From Gemmatimonas aurantiaca T-27 (lineage in GTDB: Bacteria; Gemmatimonadota; Gemmatimonadetes; Gemmatimonadales; Gemmatimonadaceae), in contig NC_012489.1 of NCBI RefSeq assembly GCF_000010305.1, positions 372,001-436,000 of the forward strand: DNA of 64,000 bases, given 5' to 3'. Numbering within the stretch: position 1 is the stretch's first letter; each line of letters starts with the position of its first letter. Made by a program: the position numbers and the translations under genes. This document shows, in pieces, positions 3,292 to 36,826 of this stretch. The notes under the pieces are model-generated. The model searched no databases and was not told the DNA's origin. It saw only the letters and a list, made by a program, of their open reading frames with translations.

Positions 3292-5486
3292 CACTCGTTC
3301 CCGAGGAAGAAGTTGGGACGGCGCTGCCGCCCCTGCTGCTCTTGCCGGTCTTCACGGGCCTGTGCGGCCTGTTCCCGACGCGAAGAATCCTGCTGTGAAT
3401 CGCGCGACGACTGACGTTCCCACGGTGCGCGTTCGCGTTGACCGTTGCTCGCAGCACCGTCCTGCGACGCCGTCGTCAGCGTCTTGATCGCATCGCGTTC
3501 GAGACCGGTCACCCGTGTGGGGTCGGCCTGTTCCTGACGCGTCCCGCTCACCCGCACCGTGTCTCCATCGAGTCCGTGACGTCCGAGTGCATCCTGCAAT
3601 TCCGCCGTACGCAACCGCATGGAGCCGGCCGTCGAGGCATCGGTGGAGATGTGCGTGCTCACCGTGTTGCCACGGAGATCCACCGTGATCTGCTCCTTCG
3701 TGCCGTTGGCGTTGTCGACGTTGAGCGTCATGCGTGAGAGGGGTGCGGCGGGAGCGTCATCGCGCATCTGCTGGATATCAGCAACACGCTGTACCTGATC
3801 GCTGCCCGTCGTCTGTACTCCCGATGCACGCTCCGTGCCGGTGGTTGAGCTCGCCATGCCACCATGGCCAAACGTGGCACCGAAGGCCTGCGCGTTGTCC
3901 GTCGTGCTACCGATGGCGCTGCCGGCCCGATCACTGCGACGGTGCTCGCTGCGTGACGCTCCACGATCGCGTTCACTCGACGCACCATCTTGATTCGTTG
4001 ACGCATTGTGACTTCCGCGTCCGGCCTGCTGCTGCGCCACCTGCGTCAGACTATCGGTGTTCACGCCCATGCTGGTGCGCGGCGTGGTCGATGCGTCGGC
4101 CACTCGCGCAACCGTTGCCACACCCGCCACCCCGGCAACTCGTGCCACCCCGGCAGCGCTTGCCGAGTCGATTTGGGGCGCAGCGGTCTGCCGTGAGGCG
4201 TTCTGCGTCTGCACGGTACCGGCGCCACGACGCGCGAGCTCGAGATGACCGGGATCCTTCATGCCCAGTGTGCGCAGCCCTTCTTCATTGGCGATGCGCT
4301 GCAGGCGACCGAAGCCGGCGGCATTCTCGTAGCGCCCATCGATGATCACGTCCACCGCTTCGCCACGCGTGTGCGCGGAGTCGCGCGTCCACGTCACAAC
4401 GGATCCATCGCGCGAGCGGCCCTGTTCGTACAACCAGTCCTGCCGTTCCTGGGAACGGGTGGTCTCCACGATCGAGACATCGTGCCCGTACTCGTTCTTC
4501 ATGCGCTCCATCACCCGCTCCACACGTGCGCGTAGCTCGGGATCCAGCCCTTCGAGTGCCTTCACAGGGGTCGCCACATCACCGCTCTTCACGGCCGTGG
4601 TCGTCGCGTGTGCTGCGCCGGCGGCGTTGGCCGCTGCAACAAGTGACGCGAGGTCGTTGTCGCCCTGACGCCCAGATGAGAGAGCGCCGAGCAGTTGTTC
4701 GTTGTTGGTGTCGCTGTCGTTGCCGCCGAGCAGACTGGCGTTGGTGCCGTTCATGATGGCACGTGCGGCCAGTCGGGCGCCGGCGGGCGTGCCGGCCTGC
4801 GCGAGCAGCGCGTCGAGCGCGGCCCGTGCATCGGCCCCCTTCGCGTCGCCCAGCGCCAGCAACTGTTCCACTGATGAGCCGCGGCGCGACGAGACCCGCG
4901 ACAGGGCATCGAGCATGCGCGCACGCTGCGCACCGGCATCGCCGCCCTGCACAACGGGATCGTCGGATCCCTGTTCGGCGGGCTGCGATGTGCTGCGCCC
5001 CGTGCCGTTGTTCGTCGGTTCCACAGACATGGCCAACGCGTCCTTCTGCTTCGACCGCGCATAAGCGGCCAGGTCGATGACATCGGAGGCGCCGTGATCG
5101 TCGGCGCTCAGCTTGAGCAGACCGTACCGCAGCGCTTCGTCGGCGGATGGGGCATCGGGATCGATCGTACCAGTGTCGCCTTCCAGCAGGCGGTCCACGA
5201 TCGAGGCCGCATCTTCGGGGAGCTGTTCGGCCAGCCCTTCGCGCACGGACGGGCCCATACCGGAAAGCAGCGCCAGCAGGGCCGAAAACTCGGCCTTGCT
5301 CACCGGGCGCTCGCGCTCGGTTTCCTGCGTGCTCTCGTCGTCGATGCGCGCTTCCGCGCGCGACTCGGCGCGGGTCGGGCGGCTGGTGCTGCGCGCAGAC
5401 GGGCGTACCGTGTCGCGCACCGCATCACGGGAAGACTCCCGGGGTGTGGCGCGGGTCGGAACCCAGTTCACATCCATGCGACTCAC
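3291..5486 (-). CDS. fliK: FliK, hook-length control protein with an internal M15-type peptidase domain
   Basis: The protein is 731 residues, longer than typical FliK (about 400-600). The C-terminal FliK/Flg_hook domain is at about 584-650 (MTLNVDNANGTKEQITVDL, then MRLRTAELQDALGRHGLD), followed by a charged Gln/Arg tail. Unusually, residues about 310-425 look like a zinc-dependent M15 peptidase of the L-Ala-D-Glu / D-Ala-D-Ala group. The motif SAHTRGEAVD supplies His372 and Asp379, and DPGHLEL supplies Asp411 and His414. The remainder is low-complexity Ala/Ser/Arg-rich sequence, as is normal for FliK. The GTG start overlaps the upstream stop (GTGA); an ATG at 5477 is possible. The role in hook length follows from the C-terminal domain and position. 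The peptidase activity is inferred from the motifs. Confidence 0.88.
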   Translation of the reverse strand: MSRMDVNWVPTRATPRESSRDAVRDTVRPSARSTSRPTRAESRAEARIDDESTQETERERPVSKAEFSALLALLSGMGPSVREGLAEQLPEDAASIVDRLLEGDTGTIDPDAPSADEALRYGLLKLSADDHGASDVIDLAAYARSKQKDALAMSVEPTNNGTGRSTSQPAEQGSDDPVVQGGDAGAQRARMLDALSRVSSRRGSSVEQLLALGDAKGADARAALDALLAQAGTPAGARLAARAIMNGTNASLLGGNDSDTNNEQLLGALSSGRQGDNDLASLVAAANAAGAAHATTTAVKSGDVATPVKALEGLDPELRARVERVMERMKNEYGHDVSIVETTRSQERQDWLYEQGRSRDGSVVTWTRDSAHTRGEAVDVIIDGRYENAAGFGRLQRIANEEGLRTLGMKDPGHLELARRGAGTVQTQNASRQTAAPQIDSASAAGVARVAGVAGVATVARVADASTTPRTSMGVNTDSLTQVAQQQAGRGSHNASTNQDGASSERDRGASRSEHRRSDRAGSAIGSTTDNAQAFGATFGHGGMASSTTGTERASGVQTTGSDQVQRVADIQQMRDDAPAAPLSRMTLNVDNANGTKEQITVDLRGNTVSTHISTDASTAGSMRLRTAELQDALGRHGLDGDTVRVSGTRQEQADPTRVTGLERDAIKTLTTASQDGAASNGQRERAPWERQSSRDSQQDSSRREQAAQAREDRQEQQGRQRRPNFFLGNE

Positions 5487-6262
5487 GGGGTGGTGGGGGT
5501 CGGCTTGGCGACGCTCTTCGTGATGGAGGCGGCGCGGTTGGCCGGCATCACGGTCAGAATCGCCGCCGCCTGCTTGTCGCCCATCAGGGCCAGAATGCCG
5601 CGGATATCCGAGTCGCTCATCTGGTCGAGCACCTTGGCCGCATCCTTGGCGGGCATGGCGCTGAAGATCTTGGCCAGGCGCTGTTCCGGGAGCGGCGTGT
5701 TGAGGGCCGCATCGCGCGCCGTCTTCACGATCGTGGCGGCCGTCGCAGCGGTGGCCTTGGGGTCTTCCTTGGTCTCCGGCTTGTCGGTGGCCTTGGGCGC
5801 CGCGTGAGCATCCTTCGCATCGGTCTTGGAAGCCGACGCCTTGGGGTCCGCCTTCACCGTTCCCGAGGCCGTTGGCGTACCGTGTGCCGCCTTCGAGCCG
5901 GCATTGGCACCGTTGGCGCCAGGATTCGTCCGCCCCTTCCGGAGCTCGGCGCGAGCGGCCTCGAGAACACGAATGCTGTCGGCCGGGGTGAGCGACACAT
6001 CGTCCGGGCTACCATGATCGGTCGCCTTGGCCGAGTCCGCCGCACCGTGCGCGGAATCGCCGGCGGCAGGAGTTGCATGACCATCTGCCCCATGGCCTTC
6101 GCCCTCGGCCTTGCTGGAGTCGGCCGGATGATTCTTCAGGCTATCAGCCAAATGTGCCGAGTCGGCGGAAAACTTCGCCGACGCGCGCATGTACGAATAG
6201 CCGGAGCCGCCGCCCAATCCGGCGAGCAGTCCAACGACTATGGGTATGATCAACGGCTTCAT
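5483..6262 (-). CDS. MotE-like flagellar protein with MgtE-N-type domain
   Basis: The protein is 259 residues. One N-terminal membrane helix (about 3-22) is followed by a long Ala/Asp/Lys-rich spacer. The C-terminal domain, at about 190-250 (RLAKIFSAMPAKDAAKVLDQ, then GDKQAAAILTVMPANRAA), matches the MgtE intracellular N domain. Proteins of this build sit between fliJ and fliK in many flagellar operons (MotE in alpha-proteobacteria, where it acts on the stator protein MotC; YlxF in Bacillus). The start overlaps the fliJ stop by 4 bases. MotE is assigned by architecture and position, not by strong sequence match, so I give no gene symbol. Confidence 0.78.
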   Translation of the reverse strand: MKPLIIPIVVGLLAGLGGGSGYSYMRASAKFSADSAHLADSLKNHPADSSKAEGEGHGADGHATPAAGDSAHGAADSAKATDHGSPDDVSLTPADSIRVLEAARAELRKGRTNPGANGANAGSKAAHGTPTASGTVKADPKASASKTDAKDAHAAPKATDKPETKEDPKATAATAATIVKTARDAALNTPLPEQRLAKIFSAMPAKDAAKVLDQMSDSDIRGILALMGDKQAAAILTVMPANRAASITKSVAKPTPTTP

Positions 6263-9871: not shown

Positions 9872-11494
9872 TCACTGACGGAGCCAGTTGCGGACGACGC
9901 GAAGTGCGGCATCCGGGCGCTGGTCAACGGTGGCCATGGCTTGTTCGCGCTCCGGCGTCGTCGGCGGCGGCGGCAGCACGATCTGACGGCGCTGTTCTTC
10001 GATGAGCGCCATCTGATCCATCGGTTCTTCGTCGAGCATTTCCTGCATGGCCTGCTGCATCTGCGTGCTGGCCGGCAATTCGGCATACGCAGGAGCTGCA
10101 GGAAGCACGGCCGGCGCTTCGATCTGCTGCTTCTTCGGACGGAGCAGCACCACCGTCACCAGCGCCAGGATGAGCAGTACCACGAGGGCGGCGATCGCCA
10201 CCACCGGCTTCGGGTTGCTCTGAATGCGACCCAGCAGATCGGTGGGCACCGGATTGGTTTCCTTCACGGCCACTACCGGCGCCGGCATATCAAACGGCGC
10301 GCTGACCACCGAGATCATGTCGCCGCGCGTGGAGTCGACGCCCAGTGCATTGCGCACCAGCGCTTCGATGCGCGTGAGTTCGTCCGGCGTACGGGTTTCG
10401 ATGGTCGGCGCTACCGGCGGCAGAGCCGCAGCGGCTGCAGCAGCGGCGGAATCGGCCGGCACCGGAGCGGCCGGCGGCAGCACCACCCGATCGGCCACCA
10501 GCACGGCCACCGTGAGCTTCTTGATGTTGCCGACGGCGCCCGTGAAATTCTCGACGCTGCGGGTGTTTTCGTATGACGTAGCCGTGGTGGAGTAACCCGC
10601 ACCCTGCTGCGGATTGCTCGGTGTCACTTCGGCCTTCTGTTCCGTGGCAATGGCCTGCCGGTCAGGATCAACCGCCTGCACCGTGCGTTCGACCTTGTCG
10701 AAGTTCATCGACGCCGACACCTGCACACGCGCATTGCCCGAACCCACCAGGCTCGAGAGCAACTTGTCGGCCTTCTGTTCGAGGTAGGACTCGGCTTCGC
10801 GCTGCACCGAGAGCTGCCGGCTGGTCAGGCCGGCCATCGAACCATCGTCTTCCATGGTGAGTGCTTCGCCACGTTCGTCCACGATGGTGACATGTTCGGG
10901 CTCGAGGCCACCCACGCTGCTGGCCACCAGGCTGGCGATGCCACGCACGGCTTCTGCGCGCGGCGCAATGCTGTTGTTCATCGCCAGCGTCACGGAAGCC
11001 TTCGACGGGCGCTCGTTCTGCTTGAAGAGCTGATCATCCTCGATGGCGAGGTGGACCTTCACGCTCTTCACGTCTTTCATCTTGCTGATGGTGCGCTCGA
11101 GTTCCCCTTCGAGTGCCCGGCGATAGTTCACCTTCTGCGTGAAGTCCGTCATGCCCCAGGTGGGCTTGTCGAACAGTTCGAGGCCCGGGCGTCCGGAATT
11201 CGGCACGGTGCCCGCCGCGAGATCCACACGGGCGCGCGCCAGGTCGGCGCTCTGCACCATGATCGTCGAGCCGGTCCGATCGAGTTCGTACGTGATGCCG
11301 GCTTCGGTGAGCTTGTCGGTCATCGCCTTGACCTGCTCCACCGGCACATCGGCGTAGAGCGGGACCATCGTGGGCTTGGTGGCCCAGCGGGAGACGCCAA
11401 ACACCAATGCCGTCACGACGACACCGACAGCGATGATCATCGCCTGTCGTGCGCCGCCGAGCCGGCCGGTGAGGGATTCGAGCAAAGAGTTCAT
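9872..11494 (-). CDS. fliF: FliF, flagellar MS-ring protein
   Basis: The protein is 540 residues. TM1 is at about 17-38, the YscJ/FliF ring-building domain at about 40-210 (VPLYADVPVEQVKAMTDKL, then GRPGLELFDKPTWGMTDF), a second periplasmic domain follows, and TM2 is at about 430-451. A cytoplasmic tail ends RPDAALRVVRNWLRQ, the FliG-binding end. It builds the inner-membrane MS ring, the first flagellar structure. fliE lies 18 bases upstream and fliG follows. Confidence 0.97.
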   Translation of the reverse strand: MNSLLESLTGRLGGARQAMIIAVGVVVTALVFGVSRWATKPTMVPLYADVPVEQVKAMTDKLTEAGITYELDRTGSTIMVQSADLARARVDLAAGTVPNSGRPGLELFDKPTWGMTDFTQKVNYRRALEGELERTISKMKDVKSVKVHLAIEDDQLFKQNERPSKASVTLAMNNSIAPRAEAVRGIASLVASSVGGLEPEHVTIVDERGEALTMEDDGSMAGLTSRQLSVQREAESYLEQKADKLLSSLVGSGNARVQVSASMNFDKVERTVQAVDPDRQAIATEQKAEVTPSNPQQGAGYSTTATSYENTRSVENFTGAVGNIKKLTVAVLVADRVVLPPAAPVPADSAAAAAAAALPPVAPTIETRTPDELTRIEALVRNALGVDSTRGDMISVVSAPFDMPAPVVAVKETNPVPTDLLGRIQSNPKPVVAIAALVVLLILALVTVVLLRPKKQQIEAPAVLPAAPAYAELPASTQMQQAMQEMLDEEPMDQMALIEEQRRQIVLPPPPTTPEREQAMATVDQRPDAALRVVRNWLRQ

Positions 11495-11512
11495 GGAGGG
11501 GATGCGCGACGC

Positions 11513-11833
11513 TTAGGACTGCATGCTGATGACACTGCGATAGGCTTCGACGACCTTGTTCCGGAGCTCGATGAGCATGTCGAGGGCGATGCCGGCTTCT
11601 TCCGAGGCGGCCATCACTTCGTGCAGTTCGACGTTTTCGCCGGCGGCGAATCGCTTCGTCAGATCACCGGAGCGATCGCGCGCGTCGCTGACTTCATTGA
11701 TCGCGCGGGTGAGCGTGTTGCCGAAGGAGTTCTCGCCGGTGCCGACGTCTCCGACGGGCACCTGTGTGGTCAGGCCACGATCCTGGCCGAACTGCGGCAG
11801 GCTGCGGGTGATCAGGTCGAGACGCGTCTGCAT
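11513..11833 (-). CDS. fliE: FliE, basal-body MS-ring/rod adapter
   Basis: The protein is 106 residues, typical for FliE. The conserved C-terminal half reads HEVMAASEEAGIALDMLIEL, then RNKVVEAYRSVISMQ, which is the FliE signature. The middle has FGNTLTRAINEVSDARDRSG. FliE joins the MS ring to the proximal rod and is exported. It lies between a small unknown gene and fliF in the flgB-flgC-fliE-fliF order. Confidence 0.95.
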   Translation of the reverse strand: MQTRLDLITRSLPQFGQDRGLTTQVPVGDVGTGENSFGNTLTRAINEVSDARDRSGDLTKRFAAGENVELHEVMAASEEAGIALDMLIELRNKVVEAYRSVISMQS

Positions 11834-11918
11834 GGGGGCGGTGTCAGGAGAAAGCGAAACGGAGAACGAGCGAGATCAGAACGACGGATCAGTGACGCGG
11901 AGGCGTTACGCGAGTGCC

Positions 11919-12302
11919 TTAGGCGCGCACATCGAGGCGCACACCACGAGCGGCCGGCGGCGCCGGATTCGTGGCTTCCTTGATGCGGCTGTACGTCAGT
12001 GGGCCGAGGGCGGCGGTCTTCGCGAAGAAATTCCGCTCTTCGCTCGTGAGCACGCTCCACAACGTGGGATCGGTGCCGGCCGGTGCTTCGGGTGGCACGC
12101 TGCTCTGCGTGGCACCGGCGCCGGCAATCGGCGTCTGCGGCTTGAGCGTGTTGGCCTGCGCGGCGCGGGCCTGCTGACCCGCCTGCTGCGCCGTCCCCGT
12201 CTGTCCGTTCTGCGCCGCGCGATTGGCATCGCGATTCGCATCGGGACGCGAGAGCGGACCGAAGGAGTTCAGGGGATTGTTGTTGATGCCGTTGACGCTC
12301 AT
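11919..12302 (-). CDS. Unknown small protein in the flagellar basal-body operon
   Basis: The protein is 127 residues and I do not recognise its family. Residues 1-75 are Asn/Gln/Ala-rich and likely disordered. Residues about 77-112 look folded (TLWSVLTSEERNFFAKTAAL, then GPLTYSRIKE), and the end is charged (GVRLDVRA). There is no signal peptide or membrane helix. It sits between flgC and fliE, on the same strand, 85 bases before fliE. A disordered N-terminus and short helical core would suit a secreted rod component, a chaperone or a regulator, but nothing in the sequence decides between them. Confidence 0.6.
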   Translation of the reverse strand: MSVNGINNNPLNSFGPLSRPDANRDANRAAQNGQTGTAQQAGQQARAAQANTLKPQTPIAGAGATQSSVPPEAPAGTDPTLWSVLTSEERNFFAKTAALGPLTYSRIKEATNPAPPAARGVRLDVRA

Positions 12303-12331
12303 GGGATTCTCGAGTGGTGCTTTAGGAGTGA

Positions 12332-12416
12332 AGCGGCGAGCCGGGAACCGATGCGGTGTCGGAGAGGAGGAGGAGGAGGAGGAAGTGACCTCACACCGAT
12401 TCCCGGACCCGCCGCT
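12332..12416 (-). repeat. Stem-loop enclosing a GAG trinucleotide run
   Basis: Between flgC and the small unknown gene, AGCGGCG, CCGGGAA and CGGTGT (12332-12359) face ACACCG, TTCCCGG and CGCCGCT (12392-12416) as an imperfect inverted repeat. The loop contains a run of about seven GAG units (12363-12383). On the transcript the loop is pyrimidine-rich. It may attenuate or process the mRNA between flgC and fliE. Confidence 0.5.
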
Positions 12417-12441
12417 GTGTTACTCAGGTGTTGCGAGTCGT

Positions 12442-13050
12442 TCAGATGTCGAGTGCTGCGCGGAGCATGGACTTCGCGGTCTGGAAGACCGCCGCGTTGG
12501 CTTCGTAGATGCGCTTGGCATCCATCAGCTTCACGAGTTCCTGCGTGGTGTCGATATCGGGGTAGCGCACATAGCCGTTGCCGTCGGCGTCGGGATGACC
12601 GGGCTCGTACACGAGACGGCCTTCGCCCTGGTCTTCCGCCACGCCAGCCACACGCACGCCGAACTCACCGCCCATCACACCATCCGCGCCGCCGGTGACC
12701 GGTAGGACCGGCACCTGGAAGGTCTGCGCCGCATCCGTGATGGGCACTTCGAAGGCCGGTGCACCGGCGACGTTCTGGTTGCCCAGCGTCTGCGCCGTGA
12801 CATTGCCGGGGTTGAACAGCGCGTTCTGCGCGGTGGCCGATTCGAGCACCACTTCGCGACGCTTGTACGGCGTGCCATCGGTGCCGCGCGTGACGTCGGC
12901 GTTGGCGATGTTCTGCGCGATGGTTTCCATGCGCTGGCGCTGCGCGGAGATCCCGCTGGCGGCGATCCCCATCGACTTGAACATCGGGCGCACCGGCGAC
13001 TGTCCCGGAATCGGGAGCAGCGCGAGCGGGCGGGTCGGATTGATCGGCAT
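12442..13050 (-). CDS. flgC: FlgC, proximal rod protein
   Basis: The protein is 202 residues from the ATG at 13050, which overlaps the flgB stop as TGATG. An internal ATG at 12984 (MFKSMGIAASGISAQRQRM) would give 180 residues and a more typical start. The rod signature is present at IAQNIANADVTRGTDGTPYK, interrupted by extra residues before PYK. The C-terminal axial helix is intact (TQELVKLMDAKRIYEANAAV, then FQTAKSMLRAALDI). It forms part of the periplasmic rod. Confidence 0.93.
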   Translation of the reverse strand: MPINPTRPLALLPIPGQSPVRPMFKSMGIAASGISAQRQRMETIAQNIANADVTRGTDGTPYKRREVVLESATAQNALFNPGNVTAQTLGNQNVAGAPAFEVPITDAAQTFQVPVLPVTGGADGVMGGEFGVRVAGVAEDQGEGRLVYEPGHPDADGNGYVRYPDIDTTQELVKLMDAKRIYEANAAVFQTAKSMLRAALDI

Positions 13051-13352
13051 CAACCGCCTCCACCCTTGATCGCGGTGCGCAGGCTCTGGTACGTCTTTTC
13101 GAGCAGGCGTGACGTGGCGAGAAAGCGGAGCTGCTCATCGGCGAGCGCCACCATCTCGTCTTCGACATTCACCGGATTGACGGTGGCCTGCGCGTTCCCG
13201 GTCTTCGCTTCCAGCGCGAAGCCGTCGCCATTGTTCACGGTCGCCTTGGCGACACGATCGGCGATCCCTCGCGAACGGTCCACGCTCTTGTCCAGCGCCG
13301 CCTTGAGAGGCGACGCCGAGGTCGTGCGTTCTATGAGTCCGAAGAGTTTCAT
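13050..13352 (-). CDS. flgB: FlgB, proximal rod protein, short and divergent
   Basis: The protein is 100 residues, against about 110-140 for most FlgB. The C-terminal half is convincing (VNVEDEMVALADEQLRFLAT, then SRLLEKTYQSLRTAIKGG). The N-terminal half aligns with the rod helix (LKAALDKSVDRSRGIADRVA), but the usual NIANxxTPGY motif is replaced by VAKATVNNGDGF, and the central loop is missing. The start MKLFGLIERT at 13352 follows the sigma-54-type promoter at 13393-13408; a longer frame from 13409 would include that promoter. First gene of the operon, directly before flgC. Confidence 0.85.
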   Translation of the reverse strand: MKLFGLIERTTSASPLKAALDKSVDRSRGIADRVAKATVNNGDGFALEAKTGNAQATVNPVNVEDEMVALADEQLRFLATSRLLEKTYQSLRTAIKGGGG

Positions 13353-13392
13353 GGGTAACCGGAGTGAGGGAGAACTATCCGGGCCCAGTAAA

Positions 13393-13408
13393 AGCAATGG
13401 GCGGGCCA
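13393..13408 (-). promoter_or_regulatory. Sigma-54-type promoter of the flgB operon
   Basis: On the minus strand the site is TGGCCCGCCCATTGCT: TGGC, then TTGCT, with GG and GC 10 bases apart. It lies 41 bases before the flgB ATG. Two activator-type palindromes lie 135-210 bases further upstream. The -24 element falls inside the hairpin at 13399-13440. Confidence 0.8.
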
Positions 13409-13440
13409 AACGTTCAGAGGGTGAACGTCGGGACCCGCCC
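13399..13440 (-). terminator. Hairpin overlapping the flgB promoter
   Basis: GGGCGGG (13399-13405) pairs with CCCGCCC (13434-13440), and inside it ACGTTC pairs with GAACGT (13410-13415 and 13423-13428). It lies about 190 bases beyond the activator gene stop. It may end that transcript, although it also contains the -24 element of the flgB promoter. Confidence 0.5.
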
Positions 13441-13541
13441 TATGATGCTAAGTCATTAATTCAGATAATGTTACAAGTGTCTGCCGGTATGCGCCCCGCA
13501 GTACATCCTTCTATCCGGATCATTGGAAATAGGCCATGATA

Positions 13542-13620
13542 TGGCAATATTTGCCGCTTCCCATGTGACCCAAGTTGCCGTGTGACCGCTGACGCGCGAT
13601 CCGGCAACTCGTGCCGGATC
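13542..13620. promoter_or_regulatory. Two activator-type palindromes upstream of the flgB operon
   Basis: Site one is TGGCA-ATATT-TGCCG (13542-13556). Site two is GATCCGGCA-ACTCG-TGCCGGATC (13598-13620), a perfect 9-bp inverted repeat around a 5-base spacer. Site two ends 10 bases before the activator stop codon. Both share GGCA-N5-TGCC with the sites near 835, 22717 and 30544. Confidence 0.65.
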
Positions 13621-13630
13621 GACCACCTGC

Positions 13631-15094
13631 TCACTCCTCGTCGTTCTCGCGACCAGGGCCGTTCAGCTTGTTGCGCAGGGTGCGTACGCTGATCCCGAGC
13701 ATGTCAGCAGCCTTCGTTCGGTTATTATCGGCAGCTGCCAGCGCATGCTGAATAAGAACCCGCTCCGCATCGGCAACATTGAGCGATGACAGGGCGATGC
13801 CGCCGTTGGGCGGGGTGTTCATGCTCCCGGGGGCAGCAGCGGCTCCGCTGACGGCGAGCACCGGCTGCGCCCCCGGCGTGGCAATGGCCCGCGGGCGCAT
13901 GTTCGGCGCACCGAGGGAATGGGCGAGACCAAACCGCGTCCCTTCGAGGCAGTGCGGCTGAATGATCGGGTCGGGAGTCAAAATGACCGCCCGTTCGATG
14001 ACATGCTGCAGCTCGCGGATATTGCCGGGCCATGGATACTGCTGGAGTGATTCCAGCGCGTCCTGCGACAGCCCTTCGATCTTCTTGCCGATCTCGGCCG
14101 CGGTGCGCATGGCAAACCGCAGGGCCAGCACGGGCACGTCTTCCGCGCGATCCCGCAGGGGCGGGATCAGGACGGGAATGGTGGACAGTCTATAGTAGAG
14201 GTCCTGCCGGAACGTCCCGTGATCGGCTTCCATGGCCAGATCGCGGTTGGTGGTGGCCACAATACGGACATCCACCTTGATGGGTGACGTTCCACCAACC
14301 CGCTCGAACTCCTGTTCCTGCAGTACACGCAGCAGCTTGGCCTGCAGGTCCAGCCGCATCTCGGAAATTTCGTCCAGCAGCAGGGTGCCGCGGTTGGCCC
14401 GCTCGAACGCACCCTCCACCCGCTTGATGGCTCCGGTGAAAGCGCCCTTTTCGTGTCCAAACAGCGCCGATTCGACCAGCCCTTCGGGCAGGGCGGCGCA
14501 GTTGAGCTTGATGAAAGGCTTGTCCCGCCGCTCGCTCTGATCGTGAATGGCCCGGGCGAACAGTTCCTTGCCGGTACCGGACTCGCCCTGGAGCAGCACG
14601 GTCGCCCGGGTGGGTGCAGCCATGGAGACGGTCTGCAGAATGCGCCGGATGGCGGGCGAATCTCCAATGATCTGCCGCTCATTCCGGAACTGCATGACCT
14701 CCTTCCGGAGCGTCTCGTTCTCTCGGCGCAGTCGTACGAACTCCAGCGCCTGGTCCACCGCCAGCTCGAGCTGCTGCGGGCGGACCGGCTTGGTGATGTA
14801 GTCGATCGCGCCGGCCTTGATCGACGTCACCGCGTGTTCGATGCTCGCATGCCCGGTGAGCATGATGAGCGGGATGTCGTATCCCTCCCGGGTCAGGAGC
14901 TGGATGAACTCCAGCCCCGTCAGTCCGGGCATGCGGTAGTCGGAAATGATGAGGTCGATGCCACCCCGCTCCAGCACTTGCAGCGCTTCCGGAACGTTCC
15001 GGGCGCCGACGGGGGTGTGACCGGCCTGTGCGAGGGTGTCCTCGAGGATCAGGCCGACCGCGACTTCGTCATCGACGTACAGGATCGTGGCCAT
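13631..15094 (-). CDS. NtrC-family sigma-54 response regulator, predicted flagellar activator
   Basis: The protein is 487 residues from MATILYVDDE. The receiver domain (1-115) has Asp8, Asp9, phosphoacceptor Asp52 and Lys102. The AAA+ domain (about 142-370) has GESGTGKE (170-177) and the sigma-54 contact loop GAFTGA (217-222) intact, then LLDEISEM. A Fis-type helix-turn-helix is at the end (NNRTKAADMLGISVRTLRNK). It should activate sigma-54 promoters, as FlrC/FleR/FlbD do in other flagellar systems. It is flanked by flgB and flgL, both with sigma-54-type promoters. Its kinase is not adjacent; the soluble kinase at 44586-45281 is one candidate. Confidence 0.93.
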   Translation of the reverse strand: MATILYVDDEVAVGLILEDTLAQAGHTPVGARNVPEALQVLERGGIDLIISDYRMPGLTGLEFIQLLTREGYDIPLIMLTGHASIEHAVTSIKAGAIDYITKPVRPQQLELAVDQALEFVRLRRENETLRKEVMQFRNERQIIGDSPAIRRILQTVSMAAPTRATVLLQGESGTGKELFARAIHDQSERRDKPFIKLNCAALPEGLVESALFGHEKGAFTGAIKRVEGAFERANRGTLLLDEISEMRLDLQAKLLRVLQEQEFERVGGTSPIKVDVRIVATTNRDLAMEADHGTFRQDLYYRLSTIPVLIPPLRDRAEDVPVLALRFAMRTAAEIGKKIEGLSQDALESLQQYPWPGNIRELQHVIERAVILTPDPIIQPHCLEGTRFGLAHSLGAPNMRPRAIATPGAQPVLAVSGAAAAPGSMNTPPNGGIALSSLNVADAERVLIQHALAAADNNRTKAADMLGISVRTLRNKLNGPGRENDEE

Positions 15095-36541: not shown

Positions 36542-36826
36542 ATGAAGATCAACAGCTACATCGACACCCTTCGTACGACGCCGGCCAATCCCACGGCCGT
36601 TCCGCGTCCGGCGCAGGAAGTCACGCAGTCTCCGGCCACTCGGCCGGTCAAGTCGGATTCGGTCCAGATCTCGGACGCCGGTCGCCGCCTGAACGCAGAA
36701 CAGCGTGAAGCGATCGACCCGGAACGGGTGGCTGAACTTCGGCAAAAAGTTCTGTCCGGCGCCTACAACACCCTCGATGTGGTGGATCAGGTCGCCCGAC
36801 GCATTCTCACGCGTGGCGAGCTGTAG
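36542..36826 (+). CDS. flgM: FlgM, anti-sigma-28 factor
   Basis: The protein is 94 residues, a typical size. The N-terminal half is loose (MKINSYIDTL and a Pro/Thr region). The sigma-binding half reads SDSVQISDAGRRLN, then ERVAELRQKVLSGAYNTLDV and VARRILTRGEL, the FlgM signature. It holds the flagellar sigma factor inactive until it is exported after hook completion. It sits behind its own sigma-28-type promoter, giving feedback. FliA itself is outside the window. Confidence 0.92.
   Translation: MKINSYIDTLRTTPANPTAVPRPAQEVTQSPATRPVKSDSVQISDAGRRLNAEQREAIDPERVAELRQKVLSGAYNTLDVVDQVARRILTRGEL

Follow-up and report, generated by a model that had tools for sequence, protein, structure and literature searches.

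A conserved small protein encoded between flgC and fliE in the flagellar operon of Gemmatimonadota

FliE, FlgB and FlgC form the proximal rod, the innermost part of the flagellar drive shaft, which is considered to belong to the universal core of the flagellum. A gene lying between flgC and fliE is unusual, as the first-pass annotation of the locus described here had remarked; in the records of Bacillus velezensis and Thermomicrobium roseum the two genes are only 10 and 30 nt apart respectively, with nothing between them. FliE is described in PMC8546590 as contacting FlgB, FlgC, FliP, FliR and the MS ring, so this junction is the expected place for an extra protein encoded between flgC and fliE.

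Such a protein, which we call X, is encoded in the window analysed here, i.e. the whole stretch of 64,000 nt (G000:C1:372001-436000) from a genome in one contig of 4,636,964 bases. The order on the minus strand is NtrC-type regulator, flgB, flgC, X, fliE, fliF, fliG, fliH, fliI and fliJ, with fliH and fliI named from position and sequence only. The principal features are as follows.

13631 to 15094, minus strand: NtrC-type sigma-54 response regulator, 5′ of flgB (Pfam Response_reg, Sigma54_activat and HTH_8)
13394 to 13408, minus strand: candidate sigma-54 type -24/-12 promoter TGGCCCGCCCATTGC, before flgB (consensus fit; conserved in congeners)
13050 to 13352, minus strand: flgB, 100 aa, unusually short (TIGR01396 positions 79-131 of 131, i.e. 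the C-terminal part of the profile only)
12442 to 13050, minus strand: flgC, proximal rod (TIGR01395, 138 bits; PF06429/PF00460)
11919 to 12302, minus strand: X, small flagellar-operon protein of 127 aa, ATG at 12302 and stop ending at 11919 (open reading frame, family, synteny and dN/dS)
11922 to 12107, minus strand: C-terminal core of X, the last 62 aa (alignments and AlphaFold2 helices)
11513 to 11833, minus strand: fliE (PF02049, 8e-23; TIGR00205)
9872 to 11494, minus strand: fliF, MS ring (PF01514/PF08345)

The promoter fits the -24/-12 consensus of sigma-54. The pattern alone is weak, with seven matches in the window against 3.3 expected; TGGCC-N6-TTGC is present 5′ of flgB in all 25 congeners that have flgB in the locus, and the candidate promoter adjoins the gene for the NtrC-type sigma-54 activator. 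X is very likely co-transcribed with flgB, flgC, fliE and fliF from this promoter. Across the genus loci the starts of X, fliE and fliF mostly have no clear Shine-Dalgarno sequence, and the leaders are C/T-rich and G-poor; by contrast the flgC start often has GGAGG. We note two other features of the region. FliO and FliP appear to be fused in one ORF of 617 aa just outside the window (G000:C1:368671-370524; L157:3671-5524), with PF04347 at 24-95 and PF00813 at 420-612, and the flagellar operon encodes an MgtE_N-like protein (PF03448; window 5483-6190, minus strand) that is perhaps of MotE type.

X shares with FliE, FlgB and FlgC its operon, a similar size, the absence of cysteine and, probably, the step of assembly. 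Unlike them, it has no profile match to the rod family (PF02049, PF00460, PF06429 and TIGR01396), and its structure models have no long terminal D0 coiled-coil helices. FlgM is likewise small, disordered and cysteine-free, but a separate FlgM is encoded at 36542-36826 of the window (PF04316), a family to which X has no match. The N-terminal rod-binding domain of FlgJ (the rod cap) acts in rod assembly, and X might be imagined as a stand-in for it; however, a Rod-binding domain (PF10135) is encoded at G000:C1:352122-352271, and X does not match it. Replacement of FlgM or FlgJ by X was rejected, both being encoded elsewhere in the genome.

Conservation and distribution of X

Alignments of X reveal a common layout. 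A non-polar start of the MSINGI type (M-S-I/V-N-G-I) is followed by a variable linker of Ala, Pro, Gly, Thr and Ser, and then by a conserved core containing the helix region PPGTDPxLWSVLTxEERxFFA, a GPLTYG motif and a C-terminal RGxRLDVRA. Eight residues (L73, E77, F81, G88, P89, Y92, G106 and R108 in L041 numbering) are invariant among 29 aligned sequences from four families (f1, f2, f4 and f5) of Gemmatimonadota. Median dN/dS, calculated for 325 pairs among 26 congeners, is 0.14 in the core, which is under purifying selection; residues 1-20 have a median of 0.37 and the linker one of 0.47. The first-pass annotation had reported a 127-residue protein with a conserved segment, LWSVLTSEERNFFAKTAALG, which is present in the translation, and the reading frame is real: X is a real, conserved and undescribed protein gene. 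It is single-copy; a candidate second copy (L002 match, E = 0.06) sits inside an unrelated ORF of 439 aa and was discarded. X has no Pfam family above cut-off (the best being RoxA-like_Cyt-c, E 0.14), no match in NCBIfam and no significant match among PDB sequences. A literature search, with most subscription journals outside its reach, found no paper describing X and no occurrence of the phrase 'between flgC and fliE'.

AlphaFold2 predictions are of low confidence. The model of full-length X, made with 38 sequences (pLDDT 58.6), has helices at 79-83 and 87-98 with disorder elsewhere, and that of the core alone (pLDDT 67.4) has helices at 14-19 and 22-33 and a less certain one at 39-46. A fold search with the low-confidence core model as query gave no match. 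A chain predicted to be mostly disordered with short helices is more likely to be a linear binder than a folded enzyme.

X was sought by BLAST (E <= 0.001) in 200 Gemmatimonadota genomes and matched in 51 (L050, where the frame is ambiguous, was left out of X counts). The same settings gave FliE in 58 genomes; the two samples are taken as identical because the listed genome handles agree. X was matched in 50 of the 58 FliE-positive genomes and in one of the 142 that are FliE-negative (Fisher p about 2e-37, with genomes treated as unrelated). The single match without FliE, in G031, extends over part of the query at 34% and contains an internal stop; it was taken as chance, and there is no FlgC or FliE match in the 3 kb around it. 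The eight FliE-positive genomes without a BLAST match comprise two (G134 and G006) with a diverged X in the flgC-fliE gap (profile E of 3e-15 and 9e-8, on a small test set) and six with a different ORF, here called Y. Since X, diverged X or Y is found in each case, all the FliE-positive genomes of the sample carry an extra ORF in the gap. Within the genus 27 of 30 genomes have X; limiting the count to genomes with completeness of 90% or more and contamination of no more than 5% gives 16 of 16.

The position of X is equally constant. Among 51 loci of the phylum sample (50 plus L053) FliE is downstream of X in every one, and FlgC is upstream in 48, the remaining three beginning at a contig end; the order flgC-X-fliE is thus found in 48 of the 48 loci showing both neighbours. 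A scan of GTDB r220 genomes, a set that shares genomes with the phylum sample, gave 37 loci, all encoding X in a flagellar context. FliE follows X except in L062, where the contig ends in X, and FlgC precedes it except in L063, L075, L082 and L084, where the contigs begin at or near X. Beyond Gemmatimonadota X was sought by this GTDB r220 scan, which used the single pattern GTDPxLW[ST]VL. A plasmid collection gave no match to X, although FliE was found in 32 records. We note that one record titled Candidatus Kuenenia stuttgartiensis (L085, CALQGY020000005.1) contains a Gemmatimonas flagellar operon together with the hairpin of the genus; its flgB, flgC, fliE and fliF products share 67-79% identity with those of the window, so we read it as Gemmatimonas and the title, or the binning, as an error.

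The annotation had proposed that the linkage be checked in relatives and had named absence from related flagellar operons as telling against the protein. No such absence was observed; X is present in 50-52 of the 58 FliE-positive genomes, and wherever a locus shows both ends of the flgC-fliE gap, X lies within it. A gene locked to this gap and present where FliE is present is therefore a lineage-specific flagellar component. Sampled chiefly within Gemmatimonadota, where it appears lineage-specific, X is almost certainly a genuine, undescribed flagellar component at the level of the phylum.

Y (105-150 aa, MRVLPYF...GxKLDLKG) occupies the gap in each of the six FliE-positive genomes of family f10, which belongs to another (sister) class and has only the phylum in common with the genome of the window.

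L054:2322-2693, minus strand: Y
L055:1909-2226, plus strand: Y
L056:2379-2828, minus strand: Y
L057:2836-3150, minus strand: Y
L058:2231-2575, minus strand: Y
L059:2569-2883, minus strand: Y

Y resembles X in position, size, lack of cysteine (none in the six copies) and a C-terminal G-x-K/R-L-D-hydrophobic-K/R motif. Unlike X, it has neither the LWSVLTxEERxFFA nor the GPLTYG motif; comparison by hhalign aligned 15 columns (probability 9%, E 0.0036).

FlgB length, cysteine content and export signals

In X-bearing genomes (L005, L012, L034 and others) the middle of FlgB is shorter by about 40 residues than in the sister class (L054-L059). The spacer between the N-terminal landmark 'LD' and the C-terminal landmark 'EM..LA' measures 41-54 residues in the 36 X-type loci that gave a clean measurement, and 87 in each of the six Y-type loci. 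The spacer pattern found no match in 11 loci, and for L052 and L053 a spurious start further upstream made the measurement wrong. A Phe is kept in the corresponding region in most copies of the X-type protein, while much of the following part is absent. The product of flgB in the window has no Pfam match, being missed by the Pfam rod models. Compensation for FlgB cannot be the whole story, since in the sister class an extra ORF fills the gap although FlgB is full-length.

In the genome of the window all 13 exported flagellar proteins are cysteine-free (0 Cys in 4,186 residues), against five of 20 cytoplasmic flagellar proteins (32 Cys in 5,332 residues); the proteins were named partly from position and sequence, not all by profile. 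Among relatives, which are non-independent sequences, cysteine is absent from 58 of 58 matches of FliE, 54 of 55 of FlgC and 47 of 48 of FlgB, compared with 4 of 32 of FliG, 4 of 31 of FliH and 2 of 30 of NtrC. FliF is cysteine-free in 57 of 57 matches though it is not exported by the flagellar route, so the pattern is not a mark of export alone. The avoidance of cysteine by exported flagellar proteins is our own count, no paper for it having been found in the literature search. X has no cysteine in 5,671 residues of 50 copies, nor in 3,162 residues of the core in 51 copies (L020, L021 and L037, cut by contig ends, were left out of a count of 47 X proteins). In this respect X appears to resemble the exported flagellar proteins and to differ from most of the cytoplasmic ones. 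Disordered proteins are cysteine-poor in any case, and so the pattern is only suggestive of export.

X has no membrane or Sec-like hydrophobic stretch, the highest 15-residue Kyte-Doolittle mean being 1.2; if it leaves the cytosol, flagellar export is therefore the likely route. The signals of early export substrates are described in PMC8983047 as a non-polar N-terminus and a gate-recognition motif. A short non-polar N-terminal segment is present in X; by inspection most full-length copies start M-x-[ILVT]. The gate-recognition motif has the form F-x-x-x-hydrophobic, and no conserved example was found in X, where it occurs in 17 of 50 copies only and at shifting places.

The hairpin between flgC and X

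The first-pass annotation had placed a stem-loop enclosing a run of GAG before the protein. The stem-loop is there, but the loop in the operon mRNA is (CCU)n; the GAG run is its complement and lies on the non-transcribed strand.

12332 to 12416, minus strand: mRNA hairpin between flgC and X, specific to the genus (folding and covariance model)
12359 to 12374, minus strand: pyrimidine loop UCCUCCUCCUCUCCGA, nearly invariant (one occurrence in the genome)

The 156-nt leader folds with an energy of -56.3 kcal/mol (z = -3.97), one of 200 shuffles being as good. The loop (UCC)nUCUCCGA is nearly invariant among hairpin copies. A covariance model found the hairpin, on the X-coding strand, in 21 of the 26 informative loci of the genus (of the 27 in all, L153 is uninformative because its contig starts inside X), and in nine of the 37 GTDB r220 loci. 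It was found in six of 118 genomes of the family, all of the genus Gemmatimonas and with one match each. When 20 hairpins are aligned 90.2% of stem cells pair, compared with 30.5-44% after slides of one to three columns to either side, and changes on both sides are seen in 41 cells against 13.0 in shuffles (L093 was left out of alignment A5, having the same hairpin as L090, and L140 out of A8, having the same score as L139). The hairpin is thus a new mRNA element, conserved through compensatory changes in the stem and a loop that stays fixed.

Read in the sense of the mRNA, the stem columns contain 45 G-U or U-G cells against 14 A-C or C-A cells. The excess of G-U over A-C on this strand favours a sense RNA, and the sense strand folds better than the antisense in 17 of the 20. 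Both observations disfavour a hairpin on the antisense strand, which would present a GGA-rich, CsrA-like loop.

Several known kinds of element were considered and rejected. A scan for loops of 3-8 nt found no terminator-like site in 11400-13650, and the stem is followed by no T run nor by T-rich sequence, unlike an intrinsic terminator. A dispersed repeat or REP is discounted by the single occurrence of the loop motif in the genome of the window, allowing up to one mismatch, and by one model match per genome in the six family genomes that have the hairpin. The only Rfam hit was to mir-128 (20.4 bits, against a gathering threshold of 49). Pairing of the loop with the Shine-Dalgarno sequence of flgC does not correlate with hairpin presence: L005 and L147 have neither hairpin nor GGAGG, L142, L148 and L152 carry the hairpin but no GGAGG, while in L006, L136 and L137 it is GGAGG that is present and the hairpin that is missing.

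The first-pass annotation had treated stem-loop and protein as one unit. This did not survive, the stem-loop being confined to one genus and missing even from congeners that keep X. In L136 and L137 X is retained, the hairpin is absent and the flgC-X gap is 9 nt; the hairpin is also absent from L005, L006 and L147. Since it can be missing while X stays, the hairpin is a separate cis-element. Situated just past the flgC stop codon, it most likely affects the stability of the flgBC message or passage from flgC to X-fliE.

The probable role of X

The suggestion that the locus encodes a new rod-export or regulatory component was right in kind, X being undescribed and linked to the flagellum; the mechanism is a matter of inference. 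Our preferred interpretation, to which we would give somewhat less than an even chance, is that X is exported by the flagellar type III system and acts at the FliE-FlgB-FlgC junction. X would leave the ribosome largely unfolded, its N-terminus short and non-polar, and would be exported among the early (rod) substrates. It could then dock onto the junction by way of its aromatic helix (LWSVLTxEERxFFA) and GPLTYG...RGxRLDVRA tail, and there stabilize the proximal rod, or complete it, where FlgB is some 40 residues short. In Gemmatimonas the hairpin would be an mRNA element in its own right that probably affects the balance between the flgBC and X-fliE messages or their stability. This interpretation draws on the co-occurrence and synteny, the selection on the core, the lack of cysteine and of a Sec-like stretch, the disorder, the non-polar N-terminus and the FlgB spacer. 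Counted against export are the scattered gate-recognition motif and the five of 20 cytoplasmic flagellar proteins that lack cysteine too.

If X instead stayed inside the cell, it might be an export helper (a chaperone or pilot) for FliE, FlgB or FlgC, with the aromatic helix holding the substrate and the disordered arm reaching the export gate. Its small size, short helices and disorder, the placing of its gene directly before fliE and the lack of a conserved gate-recognition motif would all suit such a role. However, most of the cytoplasmic flagellar proteins examined contain cysteine, which is absent from 50 of 50 copies of X, and known helical chaperones are far longer than its helical core of about 20 residues. 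Moreover, early subunits are described as unchaperoned in PMC8983047, and we consider a helper somewhat unlikely. A cytoplasmic position would also be required of a non-exported structural accessory of the MS ring, the FliF collar or the export gate, because X has no membrane segment or Sec signal; such a role is quite improbable, although fliE, fliF and fliG lie downstream and the co-occurrence across the phylum fits any role in the core motor.

X could alternatively be a regulator (an anti-activator, anti-sigma factor or checkpoint sensor) that signals the completion of the rod, possibly removed by export as FlgM is. Its architecture is FlgM-like in general terms, cysteine-free and disordered, and the sigma-54 operon adjoins the gene of an NtrC-type activator. 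Yet that gene is upstream of the operon and does not adjoin X, the genome has its own FlgM, and X matches neither FlgM nor any DNA-binding family in Pfam or NCBIfam, making a regulator distinctly unlikely. Lastly, long ORFs are frequent on either strand of high-GC DNA, and X might have been a spurious overlap with the hairpin alone of importance. This is already refuted by conservation of the amino acid sequence across the phylum, the low dN/dS of the core, the lack of internal stops in 50 of the 51 BLAST matches (the exception being the chance-like match in G031) and the retention of X where the hairpin is absent.

Returning to an exported X, its most specific form would apply to the class Gemmatimonadetes. 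There the proximal rod would combine a FlgB trimmed by the central loss of about 40 residues with an X that takes over the lost contacts, the hairpin tuning the ratio of flgBC to X-fliE in Gemmatimonas. We regard this full combination as unlikely; if true, the flagellar drive shaft would have been remodelled at its base. X is in any event a marker for flagellated Gemmatimonadota, and is open to a simple genetic test by a single knockout. A phylum-wide extra protein in the proximal-rod operon, together with a shortened FlgB, suggests that a lineage can rebuild even the base of the drive shaft.
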